DNA from: Arthrobacter sp. cf158
Lineage (GTDB): Bacteria; Actinomycetota; Actinomycetes; Actinomycetales; Micrococcaceae
Assembly: GCF_900106835.1 (NCBI RefSeq)
Contig: NZ_FNNR01000001.1
Location: 99,182 to 163,181 of the forward strand
Direction of reading: 5' to 3'
Length of the DNA stretch: 64,000 nt
The notes beneath the pieces are model-generated. The model saw only the letters and a program-made list of their open reading frames with translations. It was not told where the DNA came from and searched no databases. Below are positions 2,547-10,561 of this stretch, in pieces. How positions within the stretch are numbered: position 1 is the stretch's first letter; each line of letters opens with the position of its first letter. Both the position numbers and the translations under genes were made by a program.

Positions 2547-2618
2547 CTCCTGACGCGGCGTTAACCCCTTCGGGTACCCCCGCGAAGCTGCACGGTTTGC
2601 CCTTGTTATTTTGCACCG

Positions 2619-2634
2619 GGAGGCGATTGCCTCC
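2619..2634 (+). promoter_or_regulatory. Short perfect hairpin in the leader of the surface-protein gene
   Basis: GGAGGC at 2619-2624 pairs perfectly with GCCTCC at 2629-2634 across a four-base loop. It is the first of two hairpins between the phosphatase stop (2546) and the TTG start at 2689. No T-tract follows, so it does not look like a terminator. Confidence 0.4.
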
Positions 2635-2643
2635 ACGGTCTCA

Positions 2644-2669
2644 GCTGCAGAACAGCCCTGTTCTGCAGC
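2644..2669. promoter_or_regulatory. 26-bp near-perfect palindrome just upstream of the surface-protein ribosome-binding site
   Basis: GCTGCAGAACAG (2644-2655) and CTGTTCTGCAGC (2658-2669) are exact reverse complements separated by two bases. The palindrome ends 6 bp before the Shine-Dalgarno AAGGGGG (2676-2682) of the gene starting at 2689. It may be a dimeric repressor operator or an mRNA hairpin limiting ribosome access. The symmetry is directly seen; the role is inferred. Confidence 0.6.
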
Positions 2670-2688
2670 GTTCGCAAGGGGGAAGTAC

Positions 2689-4005
2689 TTGAACAGCAAG
2701 AGCAAGCTGTGGCCCACAGCCGTCGGCGTTACCGCCGTCTCGGCTTTGGCAATCGGCCTCGTGGCCGCACCTGCAGCAAACGCAGCACCCACTGACGTGA
2801 TTTCCGTCGGCAGTGGCCAGATCATTGATGGCTCAGTCCTGGCCATCCCGAACTTCGCCGGCCTCGCAGCCAACGGCGCAGCCACGGCCGAGCAGATCGG
2901 CACTCCGCCGACGGGCCCGGCCATCATCGAAAACACCGACCCGCTGGACCTCAGCGCTGTCTTCGGCGTCGTTAACGTCGGCGCGGGCAACATCCCGCTC
3001 CTGCAGAACAACGGCATCATCCAGGTTGGCGCCGTCAGCCAGTACGGCAAGGCCGTCAACGACGGCTCCTCGGAAGCGTTCTCCGGTACCGTGAGCGGCG
3101 CTCCCGGCCTGGTGACCCTGCCCGCAGGCCTGCCCACCTCGGGCGACCCGGCCATCCCGGCAGCCCGGATCACTGCCGGCACTGCTGCCATCCTGGGCGG
3201 TGCCGACCTGGCCAACGTCACGCTGGACATCACCACCCTCGCGGCAGCAGCCAAGAAGGACCAGGGTGCAGCACCGCAGGGTGCCTACTCTGTTGCCGGT
3301 GTTTCGGCCCAGGTTGGCGGCACATTGGTCGAGGGCGTGGCGGACACCATCAACCCGCTGCTCAACACTGCCAACGTGGCGTTGACTGCTGTGGGTCTGC
3401 CCATCACCAACCCGCTGGCCAGCGGCGTCATCGAGATCACCGAGGCCGATCTCCTGGCTGCCGCCGGTGTTGCCGATCTGAACTCGCTGCCAGCAGGTAC
3501 GGACCTTGTGTCCTTCCTGCCTGCTGCTGTGTCCACCAAGATCCAGAGCATCCTGGCCACCACCCTGGCCAGCACACGGGCCGCAGTTCAGGCTTTGCCG
3601 GACACGCTTCCGCCGCTGAACCTGCCCAACGTCGCGAAGACGACGGCCCTGCTTGCCGTCACCACCCTGGAGACGGCCATCAACGGCGTCGTCGGCGGCC
3701 TCGCAGCCAACCTCGTCACCCCGCTGGGCAACGCGCTGACCGCCCTGGTCTCGGCGAAGGTCAACATCCAGGAAACCGCACCGTCAGGCGCCTTCACCCA
3801 GCGCGCCCTGCAGGTGGGAATTGCCGGCGGCAGCATCGCCACCGTCAACCTCGCCAACGCCACTGTTGGCCCGAACCTTGACGCAGCGGCGATCCCGCTG
3901 GTCAACACCGACACCATGGCCATCAGTGGTGGCGTGGCCCTCCTGGCACTGCTCACCTGGCTGTTCGTCCGCTCGCGCCGCCGGTCTGCGGTAGTTGCTG
4001 CCTGA
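2689..4005 (+). CDS. Secreted surface protein resembling choice-of-anchor G proteins
   Basis: 438-residue exported protein. A TTG start at 2689 is chosen because AAGGGGG stands 6 nt upstream and it places a clean signal peptide (NSKSKLWPTAVGV through ALAIGLVAAPAANA, cleavage near AAPTD) at the N-terminus. The mature part is Ala/Val/Thr-rich and contains the stretch IIQVGAVSQYGKAVNDGSSE, typical of the choice-of-anchor G domain as I remember it. It ends with a hydrophobic segment (ISGGVALLALLTWLFV) and a basic tail RSRRR. No LPxTG or LAxTG motif precedes that segment, so the anchor is of another type. The exosortase-family protein at 5683 is the obvious candidate processing enzyme. It is preceded by two leader hairpins. 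Confidence 0.75.
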   Translation: MNSKSKLWPTAVGVTAVSALAIGLVAAPAANAAPTDVISVGSGQIIDGSVLAIPNFAGLAANGAATAEQIGTPPTGPAIIENTDPLDLSAVFGVVNVGAGNIPLLQNNGIIQVGAVSQYGKAVNDGSSEAFSGTVSGAPGLVTLPAGLPTSGDPAIPAARITAGTAAILGGADLANVTLDITTLAAAAKKDQGAAPQGAYSVAGVSAQVGGTLVEGVADTINPLLNTANVALTAVGLPITNPLASGVIEITEADLLAAAGVADLNSLPAGTDLVSFLPAAVSTKIQSILATTLASTRAAVQALPDTLPPLNLPNVAKTTALLAVTTLETAINGVVGGLAANLVTPLGNALTALVSAKVNIQETAPSGAFTQRALQVGIAGGSIATVNLANATVGPNLDAAAIPLVNTDTMAISGGVALLALLTWLFVRSRRRSAVVAA

Positions 4006-4047
4006 TCGCCTTGAGCGCGTCACGCAACAGCGAAAGGAGAACGCCTT

Positions 4048-4230
4048 ATGTACGGCCATAACTGGACTGCAGGCGGCACGGCAGCCGGCGGTACCGCCCT
4101 CGCTGTCACCGGTGCCCCAACCCTTGGTTGGGTCATCCTGGTAGGTGTTGCCCTGCTGATAACCGGCTTCGTGGTCCTGCGTAACAGCAGGCTCAAGGCT
4201 GCGAAGCGGGAAACGGGCCCCAACCCGTAG
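4048..4230 (+). CDS. 60-residue membrane mini-protein carrying an LAVTG sorting motif
   Basis: Small protein with a strong ribosome-binding site (AAAGGAG upstream of ATG 4048). It has a Gly/Ala/Thr-rich start (MYGHNWTAGGTAAGG), then LAVTG at about residues 19-23, a hydrophobic segment (LGWVILVGVALLITGFVVL) and a basic end (RNSRLKAAKR). This is the layout of a cell-wall sorting signal of the LAxTG type used by class E sortases, but without the signal peptide that normally precedes it. It lies 42 bp after the surface-protein gene and before a terminator. It may be a minimal sortase substrate, a small membrane subunit, or a protein whose LAVTG is coincidental. Confidence 0.65.
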   Translation: MYGHNWTAGGTAAGGTALAVTGAPTLGWVILVGVALLITGFVVLRNSRLKAAKRETGPNP

Positions 4231-4237
4231 CACCACC

Positions 4238-4281
4238 GGCGGGGCGGCTCCTGCAAGAGCCGCCCCGCCACCCCAACTTTT
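4238..4281 (+). terminator. Intrinsic terminator after the LAVTG mini-protein
   Basis: GGCGGGGCGGCTC (4238-4250) pairs perfectly with GAGCCGCCCCGCC (4257-4269) across a six-base loop, and a CTTTTT tract follows. It separates the two surface-protein genes from the glycosyltransferase/exosortase genes, so the substrate genes could be expressed at a higher level than the enzymes. Confidence 0.8.
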
Positions 4282-4321
4282 TCGAACAGGCCCTTCGGCC
4301 TTGCCCAAGCATCGGACGTAC

Positions 4322-5683
4322 ATGTCGGTACTCGAATCCGCACAGGCGCTGGCTTTCGTGCTCCTGGTGGTTTTTCTGTCGTATATCCTCGTCATCCTGG
4401 TGCCGTTCCTGCGGCGCAAGCCTGATCCTGAGGGCGATCCCGGCACTTTCTCCTGGCATGTGTTCATCCCGTGCCGGGACGAGGAAGTGGTGATCGGAAA
4501 GACCCTTGAACTGCTCCGGGAAAAGTTTCCGGAAGCCCACGTCTGGGTAGTCGATGACGACAGTGATGACGCAACTGCGGGCATCGTCCAGGCCGCCTCG
4601 GACCGCGACAGCATGATTCACCTGGTGCGCCGCAGACGGCCACTCGCCCGAACCGGCAAGGGAGACGCCCTCAACGCCGCCTACCGGACCCTGGACGGCT
4701 GGCTGCCCGCCGCCGTCGACCGTTCTTCGGTAATCGTCCTGGTGGTCGACGCCGACGGCCACCTTGCGGACAACGCCTTCCGGCAAGCGGCTGGTCCGCT
4801 CGCCTTCGGCGACCCTGAAGTGGGTGCCGCGCAGACCGCCGTCTGGATGTCCAACCTTGAGGACCCCGCACTGACGGGCGGCCAAGGGCGTGAACGCATC
4901 AAGCGGGCGTTTGGCCGCTACCTGGTCCTGATGCAGGACATGGAGTTCCGCACCACCATCGCCGCCATGCAGTCCCTGCGGCGCCACACGCTGACCGTTG
5001 GCCTGGGTGGGAACGGCCAGTTCACCCGGCTGTCCGCTTTGGATGCCATCGCCAGGACGTCGGGGCAGCCGTGGCACGGCGCCCTCCTGGAGGACTATGA
5101 ACTGGCCATCCACATCATGCTGGGCGGCTACAAAACCGTGTACATGCATGACACGCATGTGGCCCAGGAAGCCCTCCCTGACCTGCGCCGCCTCCTGACC
5201 CAGCGGACACGCTGGTGCCATGGGGGAATGCAGTGCAGCACCTACCTGAAGCGGATCTTCGAATCGCCGTATTTCAGCAACGTGGGGGCGATCGAGTCCA
5301 GCTACTTCCTGATTCAGCCGTTCATCCAGATTGTTGGCCTGGTCCTCTGGCCCACGCTGTTTGTCACCATGGTGGCGCAAGGCGCCTTGACCATGGGAAG
5401 CTTCGCGGCCTGGATCTCCGCGGCGTGGTTCATCATTCCGCTGATCTTCGCCACGGGCGTGCTGCCGTTCGCCCTGTGGGGACTCGTGTACAGGCGGCAG
5501 GTCACCCCTGAAAAGAACTTTATGCTGGGCGTGGTGTGGGGCCTTGGCTACTGGCTTTACATGTACCAGAACTACGTGACGGTGCTTCGGGCGACCTACC
5601 GCCTCATCACCGGCCGCCAAGGGTGGGCCAAGACCCGCCGCAACCATGAGTCCGACGTCAAACTCCTAGCGAAGGAAGCCTAA
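4322..5683 (+). CDS. Membrane-bound family 2 glycosyltransferase next to the exosortase
   Basis: 453-residue processive-type GT2. After an N-terminal membrane segment the GT-A domain shows FIPCRDEE, DDDSDD (residues 78-83), VVDADG with DAD at 143-145, LLEDYE with Glu-Asp at 257-258, and QRTRW at 294-298. Three or so C-terminal membrane segments follow. These are the nucleotide-sugar binding and catalytic motifs of the cellulose-synthase/hyaluronan-synthase-like branch. Its TAA overlaps the ATG of the exosortase-family gene (TAATG), so the two are translationally coupled. GT2 enzymes adjacent to exosortases are known in other systems, where they are thought to glycosylate the anchored protein or make a polymer. 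The start is uncertain: the ATG at 4322 has only a weak Shine-Dalgarno. Confidence 0.85.
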   Translation: MSVLESAQALAFVLLVVFLSYILVILVPFLRRKPDPEGDPGTFSWHVFIPCRDEEVVIGKTLELLREKFPEAHVWVVDDDSDDATAGIVQAASDRDSMIHLVRRRRPLARTGKGDALNAAYRTLDGWLPAAVDRSSVIVLVVDADGHLADNAFRQAAGPLAFGDPEVGAAQTAVWMSNLEDPALTGGQGRERIKRAFGRYLVLMQDMEFRTTIAAMQSLRRHTLTVGLGGNGQFTRLSALDAIARTSGQPWHGALLEDYELAIHIMLGGYKTVYMHDTHVAQEALPDLRRLLTQRTRWCHGGMQCSTYLKRIFESPYFSNVGAIESSYFLIQPFIQIVGLVLWPTLFVTMVAQGALTMGSFAAWISAAWFIIPLIFATGVLPFALWGLVYRRQVTPEKNFMLGVVWGLGYWLYMYQNYVTVLRATYRLITGRQGWAKTRRNHESDVKLLAKEA

Positions 5684-6279
5684 TGGCAATGAGCGCCGAT
5701 ATCAGCGACATCAGCGTCCCCCGGGGACCTCGCGCCCTGCCAGTGCGGAAGGGCCGGGGAGGTGGCGTCATAGGGCTGCTTTTCCTTGCAGCGGCCGCCG
5801 TGGCCATGCTGCAGCAGGAGCACATCAGGGCAGCCGAAGCCTGGCTCATGGCCACCGTATTTGACGGCATCCTTGGTGGTGCCTCCTACAGTGTGGATGA
5901 CATCATCTTCCACAACGTGGGCGGAGGCCAGCCCTACGCCCTCATGGTCACCGGGCTGTGCTCCAGCGCTGTGCTGCTGACGCCCATTGCCGGTTTGGCC
6001 GGAGTCCTTTTCCTCATGGGCCGCATCCCGGTGGCGCGGCTCATGCCCGCTGCCATCACAGCCTTGGTCATGGTGTCCGTCAGCAACGCGATCCGGTACT
6101 TCATGATCGCCGCCGCCCAACAGACCTGGGGGCAGCAGGGCTTCGACCTCATGCACCACTTCTTCGGATCCTTCGTGGTGATCCTGGGCTTCGTGGCAGC
6201 AATCATCGTCCTGGTGCGGGCCGCCGTCGTGCGCAAAGACCGCACCGCATCAAACCGCAAGGGCCGGCGTGCGTCATAA
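5683..6279 (+). CDS. Exosortase/archaeosortase-family transpeptidase-like membrane protein
   Basis: 198-residue polytopic membrane protein. The exosortase catalytic triad can be read in order: Cys93 in VTGLCSSAVLLTP, Arg138 in SVSNAIRYF, and His158/His159 in LMHHFFGSF. All three lie at the ends of membrane segments, as expected for the family. Exosortases cleave a C-terminal tripartite signal of secreted proteins and transfer them to another anchor. Length and topology match the small Gram-positive members. The start ATG overlaps the stop of the glycosyltransferase gene and has GAAGGA upstream. The likely substrate is the surface protein at 2689. I cannot assign a named subfamily from sequence reading alone. 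Confidence 0.8.
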   Translation: MAMSADISDISVPRGPRALPVRKGRGGGVIGLLFLAAAAVAMLQQEHIRAAEAWLMATVFDGILGGASYSVDDIIFHNVGGGQPYALMVTGLCSSAVLLTPIAGLAGVLFLMGRIPVARLMPAAITALVMVSVSNAIRYFMIAAAQQTWGQQGFDLMHHFFGSFVVILGFVAAIIVLVRAAVVRKDRTASNRKGRRAS

Positions 6280-7150
6280 ACTCCCCACCCTGTTCACGGC
6301 GTTGGTGGCCCTTGCGCTCACAGTGTCCGCCTGCGCATCCACAGATGCCACCGCGTCCTCCGACGGCGACTCATCCACTGTCTCCGTGGACAGCCCCACG
6401 GTGGGCCAGTGCCACTTGATCACCACACCCGAGGAATTCAGTGCCAGCAGTGACTCACGCCCACCACTTGCCTGTTCCGAGCCGCACACTTCACAAACGT
6501 TTTTGGTGACCACTGTTCCGCAGCCCCTCATGGGCCAGGCTGAACGCCCACTCCACGAGCAGCTTCAAAACCTCACCAACCGGCTGTGCTCTGCGGCCGA
6601 GTTGCGCAAGTACCTTGCCGGCACCGACCGGGACGCCACCGAAGGCATGGCGATCACGGGCTATTACCCCAGCCGCTCCGAGTGGGCCGCCGGAAGCAGG
6701 AGCGTCCGCTGCGATGTGCTGCTGGCCTCGCCGGGACAGGCTCCCCGGGAAACCACCCTTGACCTGAAGGGCGCGCTCGCCGGGCCGCACTCGGCACAGA
6801 TCCGTCTTTGCTACGCCCAGGACATCAAAGACGGCGTGCTCAGCGCCGAAGGCACGGACACCACCTGCTCAGAGCCGCACACCACAGAAGACGTGAGCGC
6901 CTGGTTCGGTCAGGATGCCTCGCTGGTCAGTCTTGCGGCCCAGCAGGAAAAGTGCCTGCCGTTTGTCCTTGACTTCCTTGAAGTCGACGCCCTGCCGGCC
7001 AATGTGGAAGTACGGCCGATAGTCCGGATCGACGGCGGTGCCCGTGCGGTCCGCTGCGGCGTAGCGCCGCTGCAGGCCAGCCCGGAACCGTGGACTGGAA
7101 CACTTGCCCCCTTGGGCGGAACTGCGAATGGGGGAGTGGCTAATGGTTGA
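6269..7150 (+). CDS. Lipoprotein with two septum-formation-like repeats
   Basis: 293-residue lipoprotein: basic N-terminus, hydrophobic core, lipobox TVSAC with Cys22, then a Ser/Asp-rich linker. Two related cysteine-containing repeats follow: VGQCH with LACSEPHTSQ, and RLCYAQ with TCSEPHTTED. The GxC plus CxxPH pattern resembles the septum-formation domain of actinobacterial lipoproteins. The GTG start at 6269 overlaps the exosortase gene by 11 bp, and the end overlaps the next gene by 8 bp, so it is part of the same operon. Its job is unknown. Context suggests an outer-face partner of the surface-protein machinery. Confidence 0.75.
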   Translation: MRHKLPTLFTALVALALTVSACASTDATASSDGDSSTVSVDSPTVGQCHLITTPEEFSASSDSRPPLACSEPHTSQTFLVTTVPQPLMGQAERPLHEQLQNLTNRLCSAAELRKYLAGTDRDATEGMAITGYYPSRSEWAAGSRSVRCDVLLASPGQAPRETTLDLKGALAGPHSAQIRLCYAQDIKDGVLSAEGTDTTCSEPHTTEDVSAWFGQDASLVSLAAQQEKCLPFVLDFLEVDALPANVEVRPIVRIDGGARAVRCGVAPLQASPEPWTGTLAPLGGTANGGVANG

Positions 7151-8807
7151 GACCGAATCCGGCACGAAGAAGCCGGAGACGGAGGAGTTTGCGCCCGTTC
7201 CCGTGCGTTCGGGCAAGAGCCCCCAGCCCGGGCCGCTTCGCAGGCTTGCATCGTTCCTCGCACGCGTCTTCGGACCCGGAGAACTGACGCTCGGAGGTTT
7301 TCGCGCCCCCGCCATCCTTGCGGGTGTGGCGTCCGCGGCCGCCATGATGGTGAGGTTGTTCGTTCCCGGCCCCGTGGGCATGGGAGACCAAGGAGACGGA
7401 CATGGGCTGGTCTGTTCCCTCGGGGTCAGCAATGACCGGCCGTGGGACTATTCGGAATTCACCAGGTTCATCTATCCAAGCTGGTCCCCGCACGATTTCG
7501 CTGGTGAGGCGTGCGGCGCAGTTGGCTCCGGGGAAGCTGTGTACTCGTCGCAGCTTGCGTTCCTGTGGTTGGGCAAGCTGATCACCCCGCTGTTTGGGTG
7601 GGGTTCCGGGGTGGACATGCGTGCCGTTGGGATTGTCTGCTGCCTGGTTTTTGGTCTCTTGATTGCCGCGTTGGTTGCCGTGCTCCCCGGCCGCGTCAGC
7701 TTCCGGATCCTCATCGCGGCGCTGGTAACCGCGGTGATGGCGGACGGCGTCTTTGCCGATTTCTTCATCTCCCCCTATCCCGAGCCCGCCGCGTTCCTGG
7801 GAACACTGGCCGTGCTGGTGGCCCTGTTGCACTACTGGAACGGCCGTGGAAACCGCTGGTTGGCCCTCCTGGGGGTGGTCGGGGCAACTATGTTCACCGT
7901 GGCTGCCAAGCCGGAGATGGTGTCCTGGCTGCCGGTGGTCGGCCTGGCGCTTTTGTGGCTGCCGCATGTTCCGCAGCGACGTTCGGGCCGGCGGGCGCCG
8001 GAAAACAACTGGTGGCGGCAACGGGTGGTGCCGTGTGCGGCGATCGTGGGCATTGCAGCGTTCGCGGTGGCGTTCCTTGCAGCCCAACCAAAGCGCACCC
8101 ATGACCTGAACGTCTACAACGCGGTCTTCGCCGAGCTCCTGCCGCACAGTCCCGTTCCTGAGGATGATCTCAAGTGGCTGGGGCTTGATCCGGGCTTCCT
8201 TGCCGCGAGTGGCACCACCGTGGCATCGCCACGGTCAGCAGCGTTCAATCCGAAGTTCCAGGAATTCCAGGAACAGGTGGGGCCGGCGAAGTTGGCTGCC
8301 TTCTACCTCACTCATCCTGAACGGCTGATCGGGATGGGGGAACGCGGAGTCACTGCCATGCTCACGCCGGAGCTGGGGTACATCGGCTCGTTCATGGAAG
8401 GGCAGGGGCATCAGCCGTTCGACAAGGACCGCCGGTTCCCTGTGGTGCTGGGACTCTTCACCGCCCTGAAAGCGGTACCAGTGGCCTTGGTTGCCCTGCA
8501 ACTGCTAACGCTTCTGCTGGGCTTCGCCGTCGCTTTCCGCAAGAAGGCGGCCGTGGGCCGGCTGGCAGTGGTGGTTGTGGTGGCCGGGTGGCTGCAGTTC
8601 TGGGTAGTCATGCTGGGTTCGGGACAGCCTGAGATCTACCGGCAACTCCTGCTGACGGGATTCCTTGCCGCCCTGTGCGTGCCACTGCTGGTTGCCCTGA
8701 TCAGCATCCTTGCGTCGGAACCACGGAAGCTGGTCCAGCAGTCGCCCGAACTTCCGCTGTCAGAGCAAAACACCGCCACCCTACGTGATCCAGCCATCAG
8801 CGCTTAG
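7143..8807 (+). CDS. Polytopic membrane protein, WsfD-like putative hexosyltransferase
   Basis: 554-residue protein with a polar N-terminus of about 60 residues and about ten membrane segments. The first outside loop carries VGMGDQGDGHG followed by conserved-looking aromatic and acidic residues (NDRPWDYSEF). This resembles the acidic first loop of GT-C type glycosyltransferases, in particular WsfD-like hexose transferases of S-layer glycan loci. The assignment is by memory of the motif and is moderate. The ATG at 7143 is chosen because GGGGGAG stands 6 nt upstream; it overlaps the lipoprotein stop by 8 nt. The 3' end overlaps the convergent regulator gene by 27 bp. It closes the exosortase operon and could supply lipid-linked or direct glycosylation. 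Confidence 0.6.
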   Translation: MVETESGTKKPETEEFAPVPVRSGKSPQPGPLRRLASFLARVFGPGELTLGGFRAPAILAGVASAAAMMVRLFVPGPVGMGDQGDGHGLVCSLGVSNDRPWDYSEFTRFIYPSWSPHDFAGEACGAVGSGEAVYSSQLAFLWLGKLITPLFGWGSGVDMRAVGIVCCLVFGLLIAALVAVLPGRVSFRILIAALVTAVMADGVFADFFISPYPEPAAFLGTLAVLVALLHYWNGRGNRWLALLGVVGATMFTVAAKPEMVSWLPVVGLALLWLPHVPQRRSGRRAPENNWWRQRVVPCAAIVGIAAFAVAFLAAQPKRTHDLNVYNAVFAELLPHSPVPEDDLKWLGLDPGFLAASGTTVASPRSAAFNPKFQEFQEQVGPAKLAAFYLTHPERLIGMGERGVTAMLTPELGYIGSFMEGQGHQPFDKDRRFPVVLGLFTALKAVPVALVALQLLTLLLGFAVAFRKKAAVGRLAVVVVVAGWLQFWVVMLGSGQPEIYRQLLLTGFLAALCVPLLVALISILASEPRKLVQQSPELPLSEQNTATLRDPAISA

Positions 8808-9422
8808 CTGCTTCCGCAGGCTGATCACGTTGCTGAGCTTGATCCCGGCAGCTGAGTAGCGCTGCCTGATCCGGTGCAGGTGGGCTTTGACTGTTTGTTC
8901 GCTGATTCCCATCGTGTCCGCCACGCCGCGGACAGGAAGGGCTTCGCTTCCCAAGTAGAGTTCCGCGAGCCGTTGTTCACGGGGTGACAGCTTGATCCGT
9001 ACCGGAGCCGTGTCCACCATGACGGCGGCGGCGTCGGGATGCACGTACTGCTCTCCGGCCGCTGCGGCCCGGACAGCTGTCTCTATATGAGCCGGTCCTG
9101 CGGCCTTCGGGACATAGCCTAGGGCGCCCGCGGCGTGGGATGCTCCTGCTTCCCATCCGTCCAGGGTGGTGGCCAGGACCACCACCCGGAGGCCGGCGTC
9201 CACGAGGCAACGGACGGCAGGAATCAGCTCAGTGTGGTGGTCCAGTGTGCCCAGGACGGCAACGCCTATGTCCTGTTCCCTGACACCTGCAGGTTGCAGG
9301 CCCGGTTGGATTGAGTTGAGTCCGGCGGCAACCACCAGGTCCGGGGCGTTGCAGCGCAACCAGGCGTCCAGGGTGTCGATCATCAGCTGATGGTGATCCA
9401 CCACCAAGACACGGGTCACCAT
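8781..9422 (-). CDS. LuxR/NarL-type regulator with a degenerate receiver domain
   Basis: 213-residue protein: receiver-like domain (residues 1-120) and LuxR-type helix-turn-helix (SPREQRLAELYLG, VADTMGISEQTVKAHL). The receiver begins VLVVDHH with only one acidic residue, and the phosphoacceptor position in strand 3 reads VAVLGTLD, placing Gly58 where Asp is expected. The conserved Lys is kept (VPKAA, Lys106). It therefore probably does not work by normal phosphorylation. The start at 9422 overlaps the upstream sensor gene by 7 nt, so the two are coupled. The 3' end overlaps the convergent membrane-protein gene. Confidence 0.85.
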   Translation of the reverse strand: MVTRVLVVDHHQLMIDTLDAWLRCNAPDLVVAAGLNSIQPGLQPAGVREQDIGVAVLGTLDHHTELIPAVRCLVDAGLRVVVLATTLDGWEAGASHAAGALGYVPKAAGPAHIETAVRAAAAGEQYVHPDAAAVMVDTAPVRIKLSPREQRLAELYLGSEALPVRGVADTMGISEQTVKAHLHRIRQRYSAAGIKLSNVISLRKQLSADGWIT

Positions 9423-10561
9423 GTTTTCGGAGCCTTGACGGGGACCATGATGCTGGCGCCTCCTGGATCGGTGTGTACGCGGGGTGTACCCAATGATTCG
9501 AGTTCGTTCCACAATGCTGGGGTGCAGCGGTTAGGGTTCAGGTTGGTGACCCGCCACGTCACTAAAACGGTGGGTTCCACGTCCGGTTCCACGAAGATGT
9601 GGATTCGCCGCGGCCGGTGATCCATGGCGTTTCCGGTATTGCTGACGGGCGCGGCCAGCAACATGGTGGCGGCCAACGCGGCGGAGCGTGAGGCGTGCGG
9701 GATCCGGTCCACGAGGTCAGCTTCTGCCACCACCAGCACGGTGGACTCCAACCCGGCCAGCGCCAACGACTCTGTGAGCCAATTGGTGGATTGGGAGAGC
9801 ATCAGTTGGCTCCGCAGCTGCCCGGCCAGGGCTTGGGCCTGCTCCGAAAGGTCAGGATCCAGGGGGACTCCCTGCGACGAAGCGACCTTGGCAAAGAGTT
9901 CCTGTATCTGCTGGTGGGTCTCCGCCAGGCCCTCTGCCCGCCGCGAGTCCCGGGTATGGGCCTGTTCGGTAAGGGTGTTGAGGGCTTCCAACGTTCGGCG
10001 CTCCATGGTGCCGTTCACGTGGCTGTGCAGGATAAAGACCCAGAGCCCACCCAAGAGCCCTGGAAGCAGCGTGATGAAGAAGATCAGGAGCCCTTCTCCT
10101 GAACCGAAGCGCGGAGTGGTGGCGTAGTAGGCGCCACTGAGGACTGAATTGGCAGCCACCAGGAGAAGAAATCCAAGGAGGTCCCAGCGCATCGACACAA
10201 GGAATACCAAAGCGGTGCCCAGCAGGACGTTCAGAGCAAGGGAAAGGTATCCGGAAGTGAGCGTCACGGACTGGGCCGTCATGGTGCCGGAGGCAATGGA
10301 CGAGGCCAGCCAGATCAGCCGAAGATACGGCAGCTGCCGCCGGGGTGTCTTTGGATCCGATGCGATGCTCGCCATGGCGAATCCCAGAAGGTCGAAAGCC
10401 AGCGCCCCAAACCTCACATTGTCCAGGCGGCTGCCGTCCAGCGAGGCAGTATTGATGGCAAGGGACATGGCCCAGACAGTCAGGCTGGCGACGACCAGGA
10501 CAGCACGGGAAACAAAAAGAGGACCCACTCCGCGTGCCGCGCTGAGGTGGGCGAGGCTCAT
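9416..10561 (-). CDS. Membrane protein resembling a degenerate sensor kinase
   Basis: 381-residue protein with six or so N-terminal membrane segments, a helical linker (TLEALNTLTEQAHTRDSRR) and a C-terminal region. That region looks like a worn-down histidine-kinase ATPase domain: around ASRSAALAATMLLAAPV and IHIFVEPDVEPTVLVTWRV one expects the N box and G1 box, but no Asn box or DxGxG is present. It sits between a complete kinase (4-bp ATGA overlap) and a LuxR-type regulator (7-bp overlap). Its position suggests a sensor or accessory subunit for that kinase. The loss of catalytic motifs is seen; the role is inferred. Confidence 0.7.
   Translation of the reverse strand: MSLAHLSAARGVGPLFVSRAVLVVASLTVWAMSLAINTASLDGSRLDNVRFGALAFDLLGFAMASIASDPKTPRRQLPYLRLIWLASSIASGTMTAQSVTLTSGYLSLALNVLLGTALVFLVSMRWDLLGFLLLVAANSVLSGAYYATTPRFGSGEGLLIFFITLLPGLLGGLWVFILHSHVNGTMERRTLEALNTLTEQAHTRDSRRAEGLAETHQQIQELFAKVASSQGVPLDPDLSEQAQALAGQLRSQLMLSQSTNWLTESLALAGLESTVLVVAEADLVDRIPHASRSAALAATMLLAAPVSNTGNAMDHRPRRIHIFVEPDVEPTVLVTWRVTNLNPNRCTPALWNELESLGTPRVHTDPGGASIMVPVKAPKTW

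Follow-up and report, generated by a model that had tools for sequence, protein, structure and literature searches.

A conserved mini-protein in an exosortase S cassette of Arthrobacter and its recurrence beside GT2 glycosyltransferase genes

We analyzed a 64,000-nucleotide stretch of the genome of Arthrobacter sp. cf158 (contig NZ_FNNR01000001.1, positions 99,182 to 163,181; hereafter the window), in which six genes lie on the forward strand from position 2689. In order, they encode a secreted choice-of-anchor G protein with a PVV-CTERM signal (the substrate), a 60-residue membrane mini-protein, a GT2 glycosyltransferase (GT), exosortase S (XrtS), a lipoprotein with a Septum_form domain, and a WsfD-family hexose transferase (Table 1). 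Five of the six scored above curated NCBIfam or Pfam cut-offs, and the 60-residue open reading frame (ORF) fell below all of them. Because the family scores exceed curated cut-offs and the gene order is repeated in 16 distinct loci, the locus is beyond chance; judged from its sequence, it is an XrtS cassette. A one-substrate XrtS cassette is a known kind of system, and four of its gene types already carry curated NCBIfam names. New, as far as our searches reach, are the mini-protein, its pairing with GT2 genes, and a hairpin in the cassette. No description of the XrtS cassette system was found in the open-licence literature searched, and none of the papers listed there named PVV-CTERM or choice-of-anchor G.

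The mini-protein was present in all 16 distinct XrtS loci, each time with LA[VAFL]TG retained. Met1-Tyr2 was invariant in 14 of the XrtS-locus sequences, and was also present in 17 aligned mini-proteins, among which the start of some distant rows had been picked at MY by hand. The uncorrected ratio of nonsynonymous to synonymous differences (pN/pS), 0.246 over 120 pairs, was below those of XrtS (0.332) and the substrate (0.300). By its conservation, the mini-protein is a real gene. Hydropathy revealed a single hydrophobic segment in the 60 residues and no N-terminal signal peptide; the predicted topology has the N terminus outside, followed by LAVTG, the transmembrane (TM) segment, and the basic tail. 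LxxTG, hydrophobic segment, and basic tail are features of sortase substrates. The best match was NF058583 (LAXTG_small_WW) at 31.8 bits, under the cut-off of 65, which was reached by no mini-protein scanned (best, 40.1 bits); the match to NF058582 was also weak. Among the sortases of the window's genome are one of class C and one of class E, the latter scoring 250.7 bits against a cut-off of 160; proteins bearing LAXTG signals are reported to be displayed by class E enzymes (PMC5148588). Among open-licence papers, none was found that joins an exosortase with LAXTG.

A preliminary description of the locus had proposed an exosortase with one adjacent substrate, two glycosyltransferase-like enzymes, and a lipoprotein. 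The product of the gene at 5683 did match the exosortase model, and the Cys93, Arg138, and His158/159 pointed out in that description are all present and invariant in 9 aligned orthologues. The parts also co-travel across genomes, as detailed below; neither of the contrary outcomes that the description had named, lack of an exosortase match or loci routinely without substrate and glycosyltransferases, was observed. Its reading was thus supported in part; wall anchoring and glycosylation of the substrate, which it also proposed, are putative, and an anchor or a separate polymer may carry the sugar instead. The gene couplings were as described: the GT stop and XrtS start overlap in TAATG (5681-5685), the lipoprotein GTG at 6269 overlaps the XrtS stop, and the likely WsfD ATG at 7143 lies inside the end of the lipoprotein gene. 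WsfD, credited with ten segments, gave 7 strong ones in a simple hydropathy scan. The secreted protein had been assigned a C-terminal hydrophobic segment and RSRRR tail, both of which are present, and no LPxTG or LAxTG was reported. The latter is correct for the substrate, which has hydrophobic stretches at residues 11-29 and 409-427 (then RSRRR) and no LxxTG, but not for the locus, where the mini-protein bears LAVTG. Besides this gene, the description had overlooked the hairpin and the existing family names.

The order common to the 16 loci, whose named hosts are Paenarthrobacter and Arthrobacter strains such as the soil strain Paenarthrobacter aurescens TC1 (L028), is IMPase, substrate, mini-protein, GT, XrtS, lipoprotein, WsfD, and LuxR, with single exceptions. 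The lipoprotein was found in 15 of 16 loci (not in L038; L and G numbers denote loci and genomes), and a substrate orthologue in 16 of 16, with its match split in two in L031. The IMPase gene was not found in L019/L039, which represent one locus close to a contig end, and WsfD was split in two pieces in G043. The LuxR-type regulator-like gene (8781-9512, reverse strand in the window), convergent to WsfD, adjoins the cassette in all 16 loci.

XrtS reached its cut-off in 9 of the 99 genomes searched, namely the window's own and 8 of 60 congeners; in a class-wide sample of 394, only the window's own genome reached it. The same 9 of 63 genus genomes carry the mini-protein, a GT above the cut-off, WsfD, and the lipoprotein, and each has a choice-of-anchor G protein. 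Of the 63, 61 were also searched for XrtS: 9 of these have all parts, and the remaining 52 have no XrtS, WsfD, lipoprotein, above-cut-off GT, or strong mini-protein match. The mini-protein matches in the 9 genomes were strong (E < 1e-18), and two extra rows among the 63 were weak (E about 7e-4). With 17 of the 63 genus genomes encoding choice-of-anchor G proteins, the domain is not tied to XrtS. In the window's genome, the substrate is its single match and XrtS is the sole TIGR04178 match at E ≤ 0.001. The PVV-CTERM signal could be aligned in 13 substrate sequences. The single choice-of-anchor G match in the genome, and the lack of a second PVV-CTERM-like tail among the called ORFs of the 64-kb window, would fit a single dedicated substrate.

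Mini-proteins of this type also occur in other exosortase loci. We examined 14 further loci ranked by NF033767 score, the ten most XrtS-like of which scored at least 54 bits but below the cut-off (L022, L023, L081-L088). An MY...L[AP]xTG-TM protein, an exosortase, and a GT lay within 3 kb of one another in 8 of the 14, that is, in 8 of the ten most XrtS-like; in L087 the mini-protein is on the opposite strand. In L084 (6614-7315, forward strand), mini-protein and exosortase form one continuous 233-residue ORF, a single case from a 68%-complete genome. Grouping the exosortases as "short" or "long" on the basis of their open frames was abandoned, because that of L090 has a possible late start. 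In L089, L090, and L024, the less XrtS-like actinomycete exosortases have as neighbours a GT and a region that looks ATP-grasp-like. The exosortase of L022 (G043:C44, 7959-8405, reverse strand; 96.5 bits to XrtS, below the cut-off) is a second one in a cassette-bearing genome, and may be degenerate.

The pairing with GT2 genes extends beyond exosortases. We searched the 394 class genomes with a profile built from 10 mini-proteins (E ≤ 0.01). The eight best rows were all linked to an exosortase. Half of the genomes (197) were matched, mostly by tails of larger proteins, judging by open frame and alignment start; presence alone is therefore uninformative. Among the matches listed, all 15 that align from model position 1-2 have a GT2 gene within about 0.8 kb, and in most of the exosortase-locus cases the exosortase sits between mini-protein and GT2. 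Nine of the 15 had not been used in building the model, although that of G154 is almost the same as one that had. The window's genome itself encodes a second MY...LAATG mini-protein (L177; G000:C14, 5992-6210, reverse strand) directly after a GT2 gene (6179-7393, reverse strand), and no exosortase was seen beside this pair. A general dependence of the mini-protein on an exosortase was rejected, because the same type adjoins GT2 genes in genomes with no TIGR04178 match and the mini-protein was not found in 6 of the 14 other exosortase loci.

Orthologues of the L177 GT comprised 52 rows above 250 bits among the matches listed, the next being at 123. One of them (G299, L175) has a mini-protein; for the other 51 (L180-L230), a script, which favours an MY start wherever one is open, detected a small-TM ORF downstream of 40, with MY and LxxTG in 18 of the group. 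By eye, three of the 11 misses have an MY protein (L217, L221, L229), one has a mini-protein masked after its start (L204), six have a longer or interrupted partner resembling the type B described next (L191, L200, L209, L213, L216, L219), and one has an extended GT (L227). Type B, a small-TM partner without MY, was found beside many other GTs of the group (L192, L194-L198, L201-L203, L206, L208, L218, L220, L222, L224, L226). These partners (ILLPES... TM ... AKxLPR) overlap or closely trail GT2 genes with longer open frames, and the two tested had no Pfam or NCBIfam match. As controls served 20 further GT2 matches in genus genomes, none of which had a small-TM ORF downstream; one (L242) has an MY ORF upstream, without LxxTG. 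The control GT2 groups are more distant, and they therefore take account of position but not of how closely the genes are related. The GT searches also matched 5 plasmid records, of which the two from actinomycetes were examined. In a Streptomyces plasmid, an MY small-TM ORF without LxxTG overlaps the GT start, the gene being unlisted in an incomplete table; in an Embleya record, MY...LAATG follows the GT directly, where the record lists no genes.

Between the mini-protein and GT genes lies a hairpin that folds in the window at -33.1 kcal/mol (z -5.74 versus dinucleotide shuffles). A stem of about 13 bp was predicted in all 14 loci given (G039 and G012 left out). With simple shuffles, the whole mini-protein/GT gap gave z from -1.0 (L035) to -5.3, and the substrate/mini-protein gap gave z between -1.9 and +1.7. 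In the alignment, 99.3% of cells were paired versus 43-56% in slid controls; both bases were changed in 2 pairs, a count also reached in 30 of 500 shuffles, and 6 of 500 reached the covariation score. The terminator scan omitted the hairpin, the T-run of which begins 8 bases past the stem, and a promoter scan gave 0 sites (shuffles, 0.7). We infer that the hairpin acts as an attenuator. Since substrate and mini-protein lie 5′ of it, a higher output of these two than of the enzymes is suggested.

Taking these observations together, we consider it fairly probable that the cassette is a one-substrate XrtS device in which a mini membrane protein acts as partner of the GT2. The scheme builds on the observed families, catalytic residues, co-occurrence, conservation of mini-protein and hairpin, and pairing of mini-protein and GT2 genes; what we infer in it is the topology together with all chemical steps, drawn from family knowledge, and all regulatory ones. 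The choice-of-anchor G protein would be exported and retained by its PVV-CTERM segment, at which XrtS (C93/R138/H158) would cleave, linking the protein by transpeptidation to an envelope acceptor. The GT2 would produce a sugar donor or chain, WsfD, a lipid-carrier hexose transferase according to PMC2943079, would transfer a hexose at the outer face, and the lipoprotein may assist outside. The mini-protein would be the membrane partner of the GT2, kept beside the enzyme by its TM segment and cytosolic arginine; its N-out MY peptide would face the envelope, and LAVTG would allow the peptide's attachment to the wall by the class E sortase. The attenuator-like hairpin would keep the enzymes at lower levels than substrate and mini-protein.

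Several observations weigh against this scheme. An NF053846-like GT (293 bits, below the cut-off) occurs in G056, a genome without XrtS. No mini-protein was found in L023, which has exosortase and GT, or in the four least XrtS-like loci (L024, L089, L090, L139), and in L022 the exosortase stands alone, neither GT nor mini-protein being seen. Six GT2-linked MY proteins have no LxxTG (L185 and L188-L190 by script; L217 and L221 by eye), so that sortase handling is not universal; nor is MY, since L199 and L214 begin MANY. The T-run after the hairpin is not universal either (L032 has none), and a strong hairpin between mini-protein and GT suits a subunit of fixed ratio poorly. The AlphaFold2 models of substrate and lipoprotein were poor (mean pLDDT 47.6 and 48.4).

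Other explanations, partly compatible with one another, were weighed. It is possible, though rather unlikely, that GT2 and WsfD build or decorate a separate wall glycan while XrtS only trims the substrate, the link being purely regulatory. As such a role would have it, WsfD is, according to PMC2943079, a transferase of branching sugar, with a lipid carrier as the source of the glucose that it adds to an S-layer glycan. Moreover, six scanned partner GTs that are not NF053846-like best matched PgaC/IcaA (5 of 6) or NodC (1 of 6), all below cut-off. The one-base overlap of the GT and exosortase genes and their co-occurrence in the same 9 genus genomes argue otherwise, as does the joint naming of Gram-positive exosortases and GTs in NCBIfam (XrtP, XrtG).

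An unlikely alternative, compatible with the partner role, is that the mini-protein serves as acceptor or primer: the glycan, or the substrate once released by the exosortase, would be added to its N-out peptide, perhaps at Tyr2, and the class E sortase would link the mini-protein via LAVT to peptidoglycan, making it an adaptor from exosortase or GT to sortase. GT2 active sites are cytosolic, whereas the MY end is predicted outside, and the MY proteins without LxxTG also tell against this role. The conserved Met1-Tyr2 fits it, since a pure TM subunit would need no conserved exterior end, as do LAxTG in every XrtS locus, the position of the gene 5′ of the hairpin together with the substrate, and the single ORF that the mini-protein forms with the exosortase in L084. 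S-layer proteins are known to carry Tyr-linked glycans (PMC2943079). Slightly less to be expected is the generalization that actinomycete GT2s, whether or not an exosortase accompanies them, have dedicated mini-proteins whose N-out Met-Tyr is the acceptor of glycan or exosortase product and whose LxxTG hands over to sortase; if true, a two-enzyme relay would wall-link exosortase products through an adaptor of roughly 20 residues.

That the mini-protein is just another small substrate of the class E sortase, placed in the locus by chance, is very improbable: the LAxTG, hydrophobic segment, and basic tail it has in common with such substrates (PMC5148588), the weak NF058583 and NF058582 matches, and the class E sortase in the genome would suit one, but no signal peptide was seen, its exterior part has only about 20 residues, its strong matches are confined to the cassette's 9 genus genomes, and it recurs beside GT2 genes of other families (0 of 20 in controls) and persists without LxxTG.

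To our knowledge, the acceptor of Gram-positive exosortase substrates is an open question. A cassette that combines a single exosortase with one adjacent substrate and a recurring mini-protein, and that occurs in soil species, makes it directly testable. If functional, the mini-protein/GT2 pairing would supply a missing component for many actinomycete glycosyltransferases, the partner gene being easily overlooked for its size.

PgaD and IcaD are accessory subunits of the PgaC and IcaA synthases. Like them, the mini-protein is a small membrane protein beside a GT2, a likeness of description; it differs in having one TM segment and LxxTG. Both exosortase and substrate signal correspond to the XrtS/PVV-CTERM models, the names of which mention neither mini-protein nor hairpin. 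The GT is a member of the XrtP-associated family, paired here with XrtS and not XrtP, and matched the XrtG-associated model (TIGR03111) at only 11.4 bits. The UDP-sugar GT WsfH and lipid-carrier WsfD of the Paenibacillus alvei S-layer glycan offer a plausible division of labour (PMC2943079); no S-layer locus was recognised here, and a likeness of the window GT to WsfH is not implied.

Table 1. Features of the XrtS cassette in the window
Feature	Position	Strand	Remarks
Substrate, secreted choice-of-anchor G protein	2689..4005	+	NF033766 124.4 bits (cut-off 45); NF051874 52 bits (cut-off 27)
PVV-CTERM tripartite signal, AIPLVNTDTMAISGG + hydrophobic stretch + RSRRR	3889..3999	+	Substrate residues 401-437
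Mini-protein, 60 aa, MYGHNW... LAVTG	4048..4230	+	One hydrophobic segment 26-44, basic tail; GGAG ribosome-binding-like site upstream
13-bp GC hairpin, attenuator/terminator-like	4238..4269	+	Between mini-protein and GT; TTTTT 8 bases after stem
GT2 glycosyltransferase	4322..5683 (ORF open from TTG 4301)	+	NF053846 629 bits (cut-off 520)
Exosortase XrtS	5683..6279	+	NF033767 198.6 bits (cut-off 145); C93, R138, H158/H159
Lipoprotein with Septum_form domain	6269..7150	+	PF13845 68.4 bits (cut-off 25); GTG start
WsfD-family hexose transferase	7143..8807 (ORF open from TTG 7104)	+	NF051875 347.4 bits (cut-off 80)

The substrate starts with TTG, as in 8 orthologues. For the GT, ATG 4322 is most likely the start, because 6 of 13 orthologues have an in-frame stop between the equivalent of TTG 4301 and this ATG; a GT pN/pS of 0.83, computed from TTG 4301 with orthologues cut at the upstream stop, was discarded as an artefact. 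Likewise, WsfD most likely starts at ATG 7143 and not at TTG 7104. An "anchor swap" idea was dropped, as the C-termini of other choice-of-anchor G proteins were mostly without a clear anchor in the stretches read. A viral scan with XrtS gave 6 pattern matches with no relative among them, and an XrtS search of plasmids gave no match.

Just 5′ of the NF053846-like GT of G056 (L138, 6822-7115, forward strand) is a 97-residue small-TM ORF with neither MY nor LxxTG. A UDP-GlcNAc 2-epimerase gene lies near the GT2 gene in L081, L084, L086, L088, L138, L173, and L254 (annotated as wecB in L254, assigned by look in the others). In L081 (10006-12423, forward strand), three similar proteins with C-terminal tails in common are encoded in tandem after the GT, which suggests a possible multi-substrate relative of the one-substrate cassette.

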